64,000 bases of DNA from Phormidesmis priestleyi Ana (GTDB lineage: Bacteria; Cyanobacteriota; Cyanobacteriia; Phormidesmidales; Phormidesmidaceae): the NCBI GenBank assembly GCA_001314865.1, contig LJZR01000024.1, positions 1-64,000 of the forward strand, in the 5' to 3' direction. Below are positions 50,294 through 60,676 of the stretch, piece by piece. The translations under genes and the position numbers were made by a program. Below the pieces are notes generated by a model. The model did not search any database. It saw nothing but the letters and a program-made list of their open reading frames with translations, and was not told the DNA's origin. How positions within the stretch are numbered: position 1 is the first letter of the stretch; each line of letters begins with the position of its first letter.

Positions 50294-50345
50294 GGTCGTA
50301 GACCCTTTACGCAGCGGGTCTTTACGTATCAGGCATTAATACAAT

Positions 50346-50426
50346 GCGGATGGCGAGACTCGAACTCGCAAGGCGTGAGCCACACGCCCCTCAAGCGTGC
50401 GTGTCTACCAATTCCACCACATCCGC
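50346..50426 (-). tRNA. tRNA-Leu (anticodon GAG)
   Basis: On the minus strand the acceptor stem GCGGATG pairs with CATCCGC. The D-arm contains GTGGAATTGGTAGACAC, typical of tRNA-Leu. The anticodon stem CACGC/GCGTG closes the loop TTGAGGG, giving anticodon GAG. A class II long variable arm (TGGCTCACGCCTT) follows, then the T-arm GCGAG-TTCGAGT-CTCGC. The CCA end is not encoded. Length 81 nt. Confidence 0.97.
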
Positions 50427-57074: not shown

Positions 57075-57656
57075 ATGAGTCTAAACACACTGCTACTCGC
57101 CAGTATTTTTCAGGGTCTTCCTTTAGATGCGTTGGTTTCCACTCAAGGCATTATGGTGATGCTGCTAGTGGCTTATGCTGGTGCGATGTGGGCGTTTTTG
57201 AGCAGTGCGCCTAAGGTTCATACTGTAATGGTGTCCGACTTGGATACGGCTCGGCGCTTTTATGAAGGCATGCTGAGTTTGTCGGCGGCAGATGTACCTT
57301 TGCACTACTACTACAACTATGAGCAAACGTTGGGTACAGCAAGCATTGATCCGATGTTTGGGGCGTCGCTAGGAAGCTCTGCTTTGGGCGGTGCTAGCAG
57401 CAGTGCCTATGGACTGCCAGACGGGCTATGGTATCAACTCAAGAAAAATACGCAGCTGCATGTGATTGGTGGGGCTAGCCTGGGTAATCGTAACCGGCAG
57501 CGCCATGTATGCTTTGACCATGCTTGTTTAGAATATTTGCTAATGCAGGTGCAAACTCGGGGGATTCGTCACAAGCTGAGACGCGATCGCCCATTGAACT
57601 TCCTTGTTAAAGACTTTGAAGGCGAAGTGATTGAGATGGCGGAAGTCGAAAACTAG
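57075..57656 (+). CDS. Membrane-anchored glyoxalase/VOC-like protein
   Basis: The 193-residue protein has one N-terminal transmembrane helix (about residues 23-43, VMLLVAYAGAMWAFL). A vicinal-oxygen-chelate fold follows: VHTVMVSDLDTARRFYEGML at about 48-67 is the first beta-alpha unit, and VCFDHACLEYLLMQVQTRGI with FLVKDFEGEVIEMAEV forms the last. The His, Asp and Glu residues could form a metal site, but the pattern is incomplete compared with glyoxalase I, so the activity is unknown. The Gly/Ser/Ala loop (GASLGSSALGGASSS) is an insertion. It is followed by two tandem arrays and lgt. Confidence 0.75.
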   Translation: MSLNTLLLASIFQGLPLDALVSTQGIMVMLLVAYAGAMWAFLSSAPKVHTVMVSDLDTARRFYEGMLSLSAADVPLHYYYNYEQTLGTASIDPMFGASLGSSALGGASSSAYGLPDGLWYQLKKNTQLHVIGGASLGNRNRQRHVCFDHACLEYLLMQVQTRGIRHKLRRDRPLNFLVKDFEGEVIEMAEVEN

Positions 57657-57689
57657 GACTGACGTAAGCGCCTTAGCCGCGATCTCAAT

Positions 57690-57741
57690 CATTCACTGAT
57701 GTCATTCACTGATGTCATTCACTGATGTCATTCACTGATGT
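57690..57741. repeat. 13-bp tandem array before lgt
   Basis: Four perfect copies of CATTCACTGATGT lie in the gap between the VOC gene and lgt. Confidence 0.93.
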
Positions 57742-57780
57742 AAAATCACTGGCACAATAGGACAGTAATCACTCATTTAG

Positions 57781-57840
57781 CAAAGCGCTAAGCAAAGCGC
57801 TAAGCAAAGCGCTAAGCAAAGTCCTAAGCAAGACCCTAAA
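57781..57840. repeat. 12-bp tandem array before lgt
   Basis: Five copies of CAAAGCGCTAAG (last two diverged) end about 30 bp before the lgt start and lie in its probable leader. Confidence 0.93.
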
Positions 57841-57869
57841 TGAGTTCATCTTAAGTGCAGATATTTCTC

Positions 57870-58823
57870 ATGAACGGTATATTGCCGCTTCTGCCATCTA
57901 TCCCTCCTTTTTTGGCTGACGCTAGTTTGAAGATTATTTCAAACCCTGCTTTAAGCCCCGTTTTAGGCAAGTTCCAGTCTCCTGGGCCTGAAATTGTGAG
58001 CATCGGGCCCATTACGCTGCGATGGTATGGACTACTGATTGCCTCGGCCGTACTCATCGGTGTTGTGCTCTCTCAGTCCCTAGCTAAAAAGCGCGGAATA
58101 GACCCTGAAAAAGTAGGTGACATGGTGATATGGCTTATCATTGTCGCGATTCCCTGTGCCCGACTTTACTACGTTATTTTTGAATGGCCTAGTTATGCTG
58201 CTCGCCCTGGAGACATTCTGGCCATTTGGAAGGGCGGCATTGCGATTCACGGCGCAGTGTTAGGCGGTACGCTGGCTGCTTGGGTGTATGCCAAGCTCAA
58301 TCGGCTCTCCTTTTGGCAGCTGAGCGACATTATTGCGCCGCCGCTCATTTTAGGGCAGGCCATTGGCCGCTGGGGCAACTTTTTTAATTCCGAAGCGTTT
58401 GGGGCGCCCACCGACCTGCCCTGGAAACTTTATATTCCGCTGGCAAATCGGCCTGCTGGATATCGCGAATTTGAGTATTTTCATCCGACTTTTTTATATG
58501 AGTCGCTTTGGAACATTGGGGTGTTTGCCTTGCTGCTGACGCTGTTTTTCTGGGGACAAAAGCAGAACCAGAGAAATCCAGGCCGAATCAGGGCAGGCAC
58601 GTTGTTTTTAGTTTATTTGATTGCTTACAGCGCAGGTCGGTTATGGATTGAAGGACTGCGGACTGACAGTTTGATGATAGGCCCTTTCCGAATCGCGCAG
58701 CTAGTTAGCCTCGCTGGGATTGCTTTGGGTTGGGTTGGCATTATTTGGACGTATGGTTTGGGTAAGCGACTGCCCGATACGGTAGAACCGCCTCCCAAGA
58801 ATAGCGAATGTATCCGACGATGA
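57870..58823 (+). CDS. lgt: Prolipoprotein diacylglyceryl transferase
   Basis: Lgt transfers diacylglycerol from phosphatidylglycerol to the lipobox Cys of prelipoproteins in the plasma membrane. The ATG chosen gives 317 residues; a GTG five codons upstream is possible, and neither has a clear ribosome binding site. Seven helices are expected. Family motifs are [39 protein letters not shown] (essential His) and the Lgt signature [17 protein letters not shown], with [14 protein letters not shown] and [14 protein letters not shown] after it. The C-terminal tail after residue 305 is polar and unremarkable. Confidence 0.95.
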
Positions 58824-59252
58824 CGATGTAACCTTCTACGGCAACCTCTACGGCTTCCTTTCTGGTCAATGCAGAGGCTAGTGTAGAGGCCACCAGTGTA
58901 AGGGCCAGGGCAGAAGTCAGAAGAAAATAGAAAAATAGATAAGAAAAAGCCCCTTGGGTCTTACGACCTTTGGGGCTCGGAATCAGGGTGCATCTACATA
59001 CCAAGATGCAGTATTTCTCTGACATATCCTGAGATTTACAGAGGGCTTTATTTACTCTTCAAACAATTGAGAGTGATAGTAGTGAGTTGATGAACATTGG
59101 AACTCAATAGCGGATTGAGTGAGTGAGTTTAATGTTCTTTCAGTTATTTGTTTGCGTCCTATTTGCGTTCTATTTGAGTTGGTCTTTGTAATTGTTTTTG
59201 TGTGAGGCCGATGCCTCTAGTATATTTTTGAACTTTGTTACGTAAGGTTTTC
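58824..59252. other. Intergenic between lgt and cobM, contains a minus-strand RNA candidate
   Basis: 429 bp without a plus-strand gene. It has a strong minus-strand terminator with a second hairpin upstream of it, described separately. The rest before cobM is AT-rich promoter-like sequence. A minus-strand 94-codon frame across the terminator is not credible. Confidence 0.6.
58943..59035 (-). ncRNA. Candidate small RNA with two hairpins and an intrinsic terminator
   Basis: Read on the minus strand, a 7-bp hairpin (TGCATCT/AGATGCA, plus coordinates 58989-59010) is followed by an unpaired CCCTGATTCCG and then a terminator. The terminator has outer stem AGCCCC/GGGGCT, inner AGGT/ACC-type pairs, and is followed by TTTTTC (58943-58977). 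No minus-strand protein gene lies upstream, because cobM starts on the other strand. The terminator therefore needs its own transcript. The 5' end and promoter are guessed; TATGTC near 59020 is a possible -10. No known cyanobacterial sRNA family was matched. Confidence 0.5.
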
Positions 59253-60164
59253 ATGGATTTTGATTCACCGTCTGCGAGTCTGGGCTCAGCTGCTAAAGCT
59301 TCGATTTTGCCAGCTGTTTATATTGTTGGTGCAGGCCCCGGTGACCCGGAGTTGTTGACAGTAAAAGCACTCAAACTCATACAACAAGCAGATGTTTTGG
59401 TGTATGCCAATTCGCTTGTTCCTCAGCAAATTCTCTTAGCCATGCGACCCGATGCAGAAAAAATAGCAACGGCTAACATGACCTTAGAAGCCATTGTGCC
59501 GCTGATGATTGATCGCGTGCGTGCTGGCAAGTCTGTAGTGCGTTTGCATTCGGGTGATCCGAGTTTATATAGTGCGATTCACGAGCAAATGCTGCGTTTG
59601 AGCGAGGCTGATGTGCCGTTTGAGGTGGTTCCGGGGATTAGCGCCTTTCAAGCTGCTGCTGCCAAGCTCAAGGTTGAGCTGACGGTTCCGGCTCAGGTGC
59701 AGAGTATTATTTTGGCTCGTATTGGCGGGCGTACCCAGGTGCCTAAGACGGAGGAACTGGCTGGGCTTGCTGCCCATAAAGCGAGTCTTTGTTTGTATTT
59801 GAGTGCTCGCCATGTAAAGGAGTCGCAGGCTCAGCTGATGATGCACTATTCACCGCAAACGCCTGTGGCTATTTGCTTTAGAGTGGGATGGCCAGATGAG
59901 CAAATTTGGGTGGTGCCGCTAGAAAAAATGGCTGAGGTTAGCGAGGCTGAAAACTTGGTTCGAACGACGCTCTATATTGTGTCACCGGCGTTGGCTGGGG
60001 CAATGGAGGGAGTACAAAAGACAGATACCCAAACAGAGATCGAAACGGTAAGATCGCGCCTTTATAACCCGACGCATGACCATTTGTTTCGACCTAATGC
60101 CAAAAGGCCCAAAGAAGGGCCAGAAGAGTCCGTTGAAAAAGAACAGGAGAGGGCAAAGCGATGA
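59253..60164 (+). CDS. cobM: Precorrin-4 C11-methyltransferase
   Basis: CobM adds the C-11 methyl group in cobalamin (pseudocobalamin) ring synthesis. The ATG chosen (AAGG upstream) gives 303 residues; a TTG six codons earlier is in frame. The tetrapyrrole methylase fold shows VYIVGAGPGDPELLTVKALK near residue 21, VYANSLVPQQIL, VRLHSGDPSLYSAIHEQML, VVPGISAFQAAAAKLKVELT (20 residues), and later LYLSARHVKE and TPVAICFRVGWPDE. The C-terminal 50 residues are polar and extended. It overlaps the next gene by four bases (ATGA), so the two are coupled. No other cob gene is in the window. Confidence 0.92.
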   Translation: MDFDSPSASLGSAAKASILPAVYIVGAGPGDPELLTVKALKLIQQADVLVYANSLVPQQILLAMRPDAEKIATANMTLEAIVPLMIDRVRAGKSVVRLHSGDPSLYSAIHEQMLRLSEADVPFEVVPGISAFQAAAAKLKVELTVPAQVQSIILARIGGRTQVPKTEELAGLAAHKASLCLYLSARHVKESQAQLMMHYSPQTPVAICFRVGWPDEQIWVVPLEKMAEVSEAENLVRTTLYIVSPALAGAMEGVQKTDTQTEIETVRSRLYNPTHDHLFRPNAKRPKEGPEESVEKEQERAKR

Positions 60165-60676
60165 GTTATTTGGTGGCTGTGTTGAGCGATCGCATCAAAG
60201 CTGAAGAAGCTTACACTGCTTTAGAAGATGCCAACATTAAAATGGATAATGTGGAGATTTTAGGCAGAGGCTTTAAGTCAGCCGATGAGTATGGTTTGAT
60301 TGACCCGACAGAAGAAGCCTGGAAGCAGATTAAACGGCTGGCCTTAGGCACCATTCCCTTTGGTTTTGCCGGTGGTTTTGCTTTCAATGCCATTACTGGA
60401 CTCGATACTTTTCCCTGGGCGGGCGTAGTGGGCAACCAGATTATTGGTGGTTTTCTAGGTGCGATCGCCGGAGCCATGGGCAGCTTTTTCATTGGCGGCG
60501 GCGTCGGTGCGGGCCTGGGCGGTGGCGATGCGCTCTCATACCGCAATCGCCTCAATGCCGGTAAGTATTTGGTTGTGGTTAAAGGCTCTGAAGGTCTTAT
60601 CTCTCAGGCGAGCCGAGTCATTCGTCCGCTGCGGCCCGAAAACATTCAGGGCTACACCGAGCCCGGTGCTTATTAG
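60161..60676 (+). CDS. Glycine-rich two-helix membrane protein, unknown
   Basis: This 171-residue protein begins with a ferredoxin-like regulatory-type domain (SYLVAVLSDRIKAEEAYTAL, EDANIKMDNVEILGRGFKSA) of the kind seen in small stress proteins. It continues into a Gly/Ala-rich hydrophobic region (about residues 65-128) that can form two helices (GTIPFGFAGGFAFNAITG, GGFLGAIAGAMGSFFIGGGV), and returns to a soluble C-terminal strand (YLVVVKGSEGLI, RVIRPLRPENIQGY). The layout resembles DUF1269/general-stress-type proteins, but I do not name a family. Translational coupling to cobM by ATGA overlap suggests joint expression, though a functional link is not evident. Confidence 0.75.
   Translation: MSYLVAVLSDRIKAEEAYTALEDANIKMDNVEILGRGFKSADEYGLIDPTEEAWKQIKRLALGTIPFGFAGGFAFNAITGLDTFPWAGVVGNQIIGGFLGAIAGAMGSFFIGGGVGAGLGGGDALSYRNRLNAGKYLVVVKGSEGLISQASRVIRPLRPENIQGYTEPGAY

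Follow-up and report, generated by a model that had tools for sequence, protein, structure and literature searches.

NsiR1 of Nostoc sp. PCC 7120 is an sRNA of about 60 nt with the core UAGAUGCACCCUGAU (Rfam consensus), a 3' terminator hairpin and several siblings per genome. In Nostoc, an array of NsiR1 copies lies antisense before hetF (PMC8406250), and the promoters carry the DIF1 motif (TCCGGA) at -35 (PMC6133370); the function of NsiR1 and its DIF1 promoter are described in PMC9045159, PMC6133370 and PMC7377430. According to PMC9045159, NsiR1.1 is antisense to the hetF leader, and NsiR1.4 lowers the expression of alr3234 by pairing with its translation initiation region. An NsiR1-like RNA is also known in Limnospira, which has no heterocysts: RNA162 of L. 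indica PCC 8005 (57 nt) is said there to "resemble" NsiR1 (PMC8400943), so occurrence outside heterocyst formers is not new as such. Yfr1, likewise a short sRNA, has a conserved stretch that is presumably unpaired (PMC4734099).

The stretch analyzed here (the window) comprises 64,000 nt of a contig of Phormidesmis priestleyi Ana. Its predicted sRNA gene shares the core, the approximate length, the 3' terminator hairpin and the presence of siblings with Nostoc NsiR1. However, it is a single copy beside cobM rather than an array before hetF, the host is of the Leptolyngbya type, DIF1 is degraded, the terminator stem is interrupted and hetF is not a predicted target. On the minus strand of the gap between lgt and cobM, a perfect 7-bp inverted repeat (TGCATCT-(8 nt)-AGATGCA, 59010-58989) was followed by a short spacer and an intrinsic terminator with the stem GAGCCCC...GGGGCTT (58978-58972 with 58953-58947) and then TTTTTCTT (58948-58941). 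The gene name cobM is our reading of a tetrapyrrole methylase match (PF00590). The features, in window coordinates, are as follows.

57855 to 58823, plus strand: lgt, prolipoprotein diacylglyceryl transferase (PF01790, E 7.5e-82)
58941 to 58999, minus strand: predicted NsiR1-family sRNA gene (RF02399, 32 bits, model positions 1-60 of 60)
58941 to 58978, minus strand: intrinsic terminator (stem 58972-58978 with 58947-58953, T-run 58941-58948)
58980 to 58995, minus strand: core AGATGCACCCTGATTC, likely the pairing seed, in a 5' region predicted to be unpaired (from conservation and folds)
59004 to 59010, minus strand: 5' arm of the first hairpin, probable -10 region (from its position relative to the inferred NsiR1 start)
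59046 to 59063, minus strand: conserved direct repeat TTTGAAG-N4-AATAAAG upstream of the sRNA, with a period of 11 and possibly a site for a regulator (7/7 genus genomes)
59071 to 59094, strand not assigned: second genus-conserved block (genus alignment)
59253 to 60164, plus strand: cobM, precorrin-4 methyltransferase type (PF00590, E 3e-53)

A single minus-strand ORF of at least 40 aa covered the feature (58741-59025, 94 aa). Its matches in congeners were limited to two stretches, residues 2-27 over the RNA core and, weakly, residues 76-94 near or within lgt, indicating that this ORF is probably a chance one. The region 58943-59035 folded at -33.7 kcal/mol; of 200 shuffled versions, which averaged -21.2 (z -3.8), one did equally well. 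The sequence, the ORF list and the fold thus confirmed what the first-pass annotation had reported, namely a minus-strand terminator and a perfect 7-bp hairpin with no minus-strand gene upstream. A pattern scan of 57500-60500 did not list this terminator, probably due to the AAA/CAA interruption of its stem, and found no sigma-70-like promoter on the minus strand; it gave four terminator-like sites, all on the plus strand, against 3.4 expected from shuffles, one of them being the 7-bp repeat. The block at 59071-59094 lies between the sRNA and cobM and could serve either.

A relaxed-threshold local scan matched the feature to RF02399 (NsiR1) over the whole model with 32 bits and an E-value of 1.4e-4 (4.6e-4 in the whole-genome scan), short of the gathering score of 39 bits. 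Score alone was weak evidence, because RF02399 matches at E<=1 occurred in 10 of 14 control genomes, none of them above the cut-off. Low scores also arise by chance; membership was settled by orthology. Blastn of the region matched 20 of 58 genomes, including the window's own and all six congeners, and each congener had its copy between lgt and cobM (with lgt truncated at the end of the contig in G005), giving an antisense sRNA in this gap in 7/7 genus genomes searched. The syntenic copy of Leptolyngbya sp. BC1307 (G003; NZ_NRTA01000009.1) reached 46 bits, above gathering. RF02399 was above gathering in 19 of 20 tested sources, that is, the BC1307 ortholog and 18 other cobM-side copies; the 20 included 19 of the 68 cobM loci found positive below, the remaining source being a gatB-side copy (L086). 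As in NsiR1, an intrinsic terminator comes after the core (U)AGAUGCACCCUGAU in the window copy, which adjoins cobM instead of forming an array upstream of and antisense to hetF. Judged by score and orthology together, the feature is almost certainly an NsiR1-family sRNA gene. The earlier guess of a base-pairing sRNA gained support from the family match, the synteny in 7/7 genus genomes and the compensatory changes in the terminator described below. The likeness to Yfr1 suggested with it was not borne out: Yfr1 was absent among the four Rfam matches at E<=10 in 58830-59250, and the window sRNA differs from it in sequence and in family. At the gathering threshold, the sole Rfam match in the whole window was a tRNA-Leu (gag) at 50345-50426.

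The 16-nt core AGATGCACCCTGATTC was identical in 7/7 genus copies found by whole-region blastn, while its surroundings varied. It was also identical in 26/26 aligned copies of the window's family, which had been chosen by exact match to the first 15 letters of the core; non-genus copies were found via the core, so its constancy there is partly a matter of selection. When folded from the inferred start, all 26 copies formed the 3' terminator hairpin and 22 left the core wholly unpaired. Among 22 distinct copies, 8 of 11 terminator pairs showed a change on both sides, a value reached in 13 of 500 shuffles, and 19 both-side cells were counted compared with 8.7 in shuffles (0/500 as high). In this alignment 81.0% of the cells were paired (covariation score 0.356), the other 19% being unpaired partly because of differing stem lengths; the same structure slid by +1 came close behind, with 74.4% paired and a score of 0.329. 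When the alignment was restricted to the genus, every cell of the terminator stem paired and both-side changes were seen at 2 of its 6 pairs. Compensatory changes in relatives, whose absence the first-pass annotation had named, together with the lack of a transcript, as refuting its reading, were present in the terminator stem and missing from the first hairpin (0/7 pairs; five invariant, two broken in some genus genomes).

DIF1 was exact at the expected place in 148 of 219 non-genus copies and carried one mismatch in another 59; at least three of the 219 (L105, L111, L112) are chance matches within coding sequence. Where present, it mostly began 38-40 nt before AGATG (141/143). Exact DIF1 was found in 0/7 genus copies and a one-mismatch form in 2/7, and the window counterpart, TCAGGA, has one mismatch and is shifted by about 2 nt; the comparison indicates that the exact motif is lost in the window's genus. 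In its place the genus copies share GCATCTTGGTATGTAG, with some changes. Further upstream, 7/7 genus genomes carry the period-11 direct repeat TTTGAAGAGTAAATAAAG, and a looser form was matched in 10 listed non-genus copies; an 11-bp period is typical of OmpR/PhoB-type regulators. DIF1 is a promoter feature outside the RNA, and its location at -35 together with the 38-40 nt spacing predicts that the RNA begins around position 58997, at about GTAGATG, within the loop of the first hairpin. From there to the T-run near 58941, the predicted RNA would measure about 55 nt, shorter than the 70-110 nt given in the first-pass annotation.

A longer RNA starting near 59020, of about 80-95 nt and with two stem-loops, would account for the perfect repeat in the window, for the retention of GCATCT in its 5' arm in 6/7 genus copies and for the very stable fold that includes it. 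However, the seven pairs of this hairpin lack compensatory change and two are broken within the genus, the 5' arm was found in 0/219 other copies, and the DIF1 spacing of relatives puts the start inside the loop, making the longer RNA unlikely. Relative to the inferred start, the 5' arm lies at about -13 to -7, so that it probably forms part of the promoter, as its -10 region, rather than of the RNA, and the 3' arm belongs to the conserved NsiR1 5' end. The layout of hairpin, single strand and terminator proposed in the first-pass annotation is for these reasons probably wrong. It is far less probable still that the site is a mere bidirectional terminator of lgt or a degenerate NsiR1 remnant. 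The scan did call the 7-bp repeat a weak plus-strand terminator, at chance level, and the window copy scores below three siblings of its own genome, but the core is kept intact amid varying surroundings, the T-run lies 3' of the stem on the minus strand and the terminator stem has compensatory changes.

Of 87 testable cobM loci, 68 had the NsiR1 core upstream and in antisense orientation (one mismatch allowed, up to 1.5 kb upstream; 1 of 88 loci was dropped at a contig edge), compared with 1/87 for a reversed-motif control. It was never in sense orientation, and none lay inside cobM or downstream within the examined stretch. By group, it occurred in 25/31 loci of the window's family, 15/26 of other families of the class and 28/30 of f32, f34, f38 and f22; these rates are biased, since two sets were taken best match first and one was pre-selected by NsiR1 hits. 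The first two sets were the best 30 of 50 and the best 30 of 55 matching genomes (2 shared), favouring window-like cobM, and the third consisted of 30/30 genomes hand-picked for NsiR1 hits, mostly Nostoc-like (f32, f34, f38, f22). In one genome (L079:6142-7480, MAG MO_188.B28), the gap from lgt to cobM holds six NsiR1 copies in tandem, an arrangement like the Nostoc hetF array. A guanidine-I riboswitch lies near cobM in two genomes of the window's family (L130:2362-2501, L134:1339-1444). NsiR8 (171 nt) and NsiR9 (122 nt), considered as the Nostoc cobM-side RNA, were rejected as too long (PMC4734099). No mention of a cobM seat of NsiR1 was found in the literature searched, which did not cover the original NsiR1 description (J Mol Biol 2010), and no report of nitrogen stress-induced RNA in Leptolyngbya was found.

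A rival reading is that the RNA works in cis, as an antisense RNA or a terminator against lgt to cobM read-through, as nsiR1.1 on the hetF leader. All 68 positive loci have the core antisense to cobM, and 23 of them have no lgt in the examined stretch of up to 1.5 kb, which is not the same as having none (G022 has its lgt a little further out, on the far side of six copies in tandem). The gaps between lgt and cobM, measured between tblastn matches rather than gene ends, were 20, 75, 84 and 276 nt in four pairs without the core and 150-642 nt in 45 pairs with it, which also speaks for cis action. Against it, the distance from the nearest copy to cobM varied widely (about 66-515 nt), the core recurs at unrelated loci of the window's genome, which a cis role would not need, and in genus g3 (L076, L083) a copy lies near cobM's downstream neighbour although the 8 kb examined there gave no match to cobM. 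Cis action is on balance doubtful, and action in trans, drawn from the Nostoc analogy, appears somewhat favoured.

RF02399 at E<=1 was matched at seven places in the window's own genome. Three copies were above the cut-off, two in tandem on C123 and one on C53; the window copy came next, and the match on C45 was weak (25.5 bits) yet carried the exact core. The exact 13-mer occurred at six places, five of them outside called ORFs (C21, which is the window copy, C45, C53 and C123 twice). The sixth, on C9, was rejected because it runs antisense within a 301-aa ORF and no terminator was seen after it, and the RF02399 matches on C68 and C128 (27 and 26 bits) were set aside as chance, being at none of the six 13-mer places. 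The tandem pair lies beside an SBP_bac_5 solute-binding protein gene (L084:9575-9723). Another sibling precedes a D-Ala-D-Ala ligase gene and shares its direction (L085:8739), and a same-core sibling follows gatB (L086:8549; C45:137546, plus strand). The promoter region of the latter has the palindrome GAGGGGTTCCGCCCCTC, which resembles HetR sites, described as GGGN5CCC (PMC7377430), and a similar one was seen in G036 (L019), suggesting that the gatB-side sibling may be HetR-controlled. The upstream sequences of the own-genome copies look like three types of promoter: one resembling DIF1, one whose palindrome resembles HetR sites, and that of the window copy, which has the period-11 repeat.

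A hetF-like protein and a HetR_C match are encoded in the window's genome and in three congeners, and the core was within 1.5 kb of hetF in 0/4 of these genus loci. In f32 genomes, copies lay antisense before hetF in 7/8 loci, and RF02399 matches of the eighth lie beyond the stretch examined; this array suggests that f32 is the Nostoc family. The core at hetF was present in the f38 locus, absent in the f34 locus and found once each in 11 of 19 testable loci of other families (f3, f15, f17, f18, f20, f24, f25, f28), in a hand-picked sample that excluded one locus having 267 bases upstream. As other families have the core at both hetF and cobM, both seats exist outside Nostoc-like families. From its kinship to Leptolyngbya, the window's genus is presumed to lack heterocysts. 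Among four genus genomes tested, nifK was found in the window's genome and G001 and was not detected in G003 and G006, both of which keep the sRNA. Across the class, RF02399 at E<=0.01 was matched in 218 of 388 genomes, 201 above the cut-off, compared with 2/14 control genomes and none above the cut-off.

Our best explanation, to which we give a probability of about 0.8, is an NsiR1-family sRNA gene on the cobM side. The single-copy gene stands divergently upstream of cobM; RNA polymerase would start near 58997 on the minus strand and stop at the terminator near 58941, and the product, about 55 nt long, would have an unpaired stretch (GUAGAUGCACCCUGAUUC) at its 5' end and the terminator hairpin at its 3' end. 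This predicted gene is likely transcribed. In trans, the C-rich 5' end would pair with translation initiation regions, like NsiR1.4 on alr3234 in Nostoc. As a trans target in the genus, hetF was rejected, since duplex energies were no better than those of shuffles (fraction as good 0.08-0.71) for the leaders of the window's genome, G003 and G006 with four seeds from the window genome's copies, in a calculation that had no positive control. A fourth hetF leader (L110, G001) went unscored for want of a match to the start-codon anchor. A further 42 ORFs of the window were scored for pairing without shuffles, and no target is claimed from them.

Most of the literature examined presents NsiR1 as an sRNA specific to heterocysts whose genes lie before hetF. 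The conserved cobM seat, in Nostoc-like families, in Leptolyngbya-type genomes and in the two congeners with undetected nifK, suggests a role beyond heterocysts. Tentatively, the cobM-side gene may occupy an old, class-wide seat that preceded heterocysts and is independent of nitrogen fixation; the hetF arrays of Nostoc might then have arisen later, when a general regulator of filaments or nutrient stress expanded, and the copy at cobM could tie B12 synthesis to its regulon, in cis or by shared control. The cobM seat gives a defined locus at which the role of NsiR1 can be tested.
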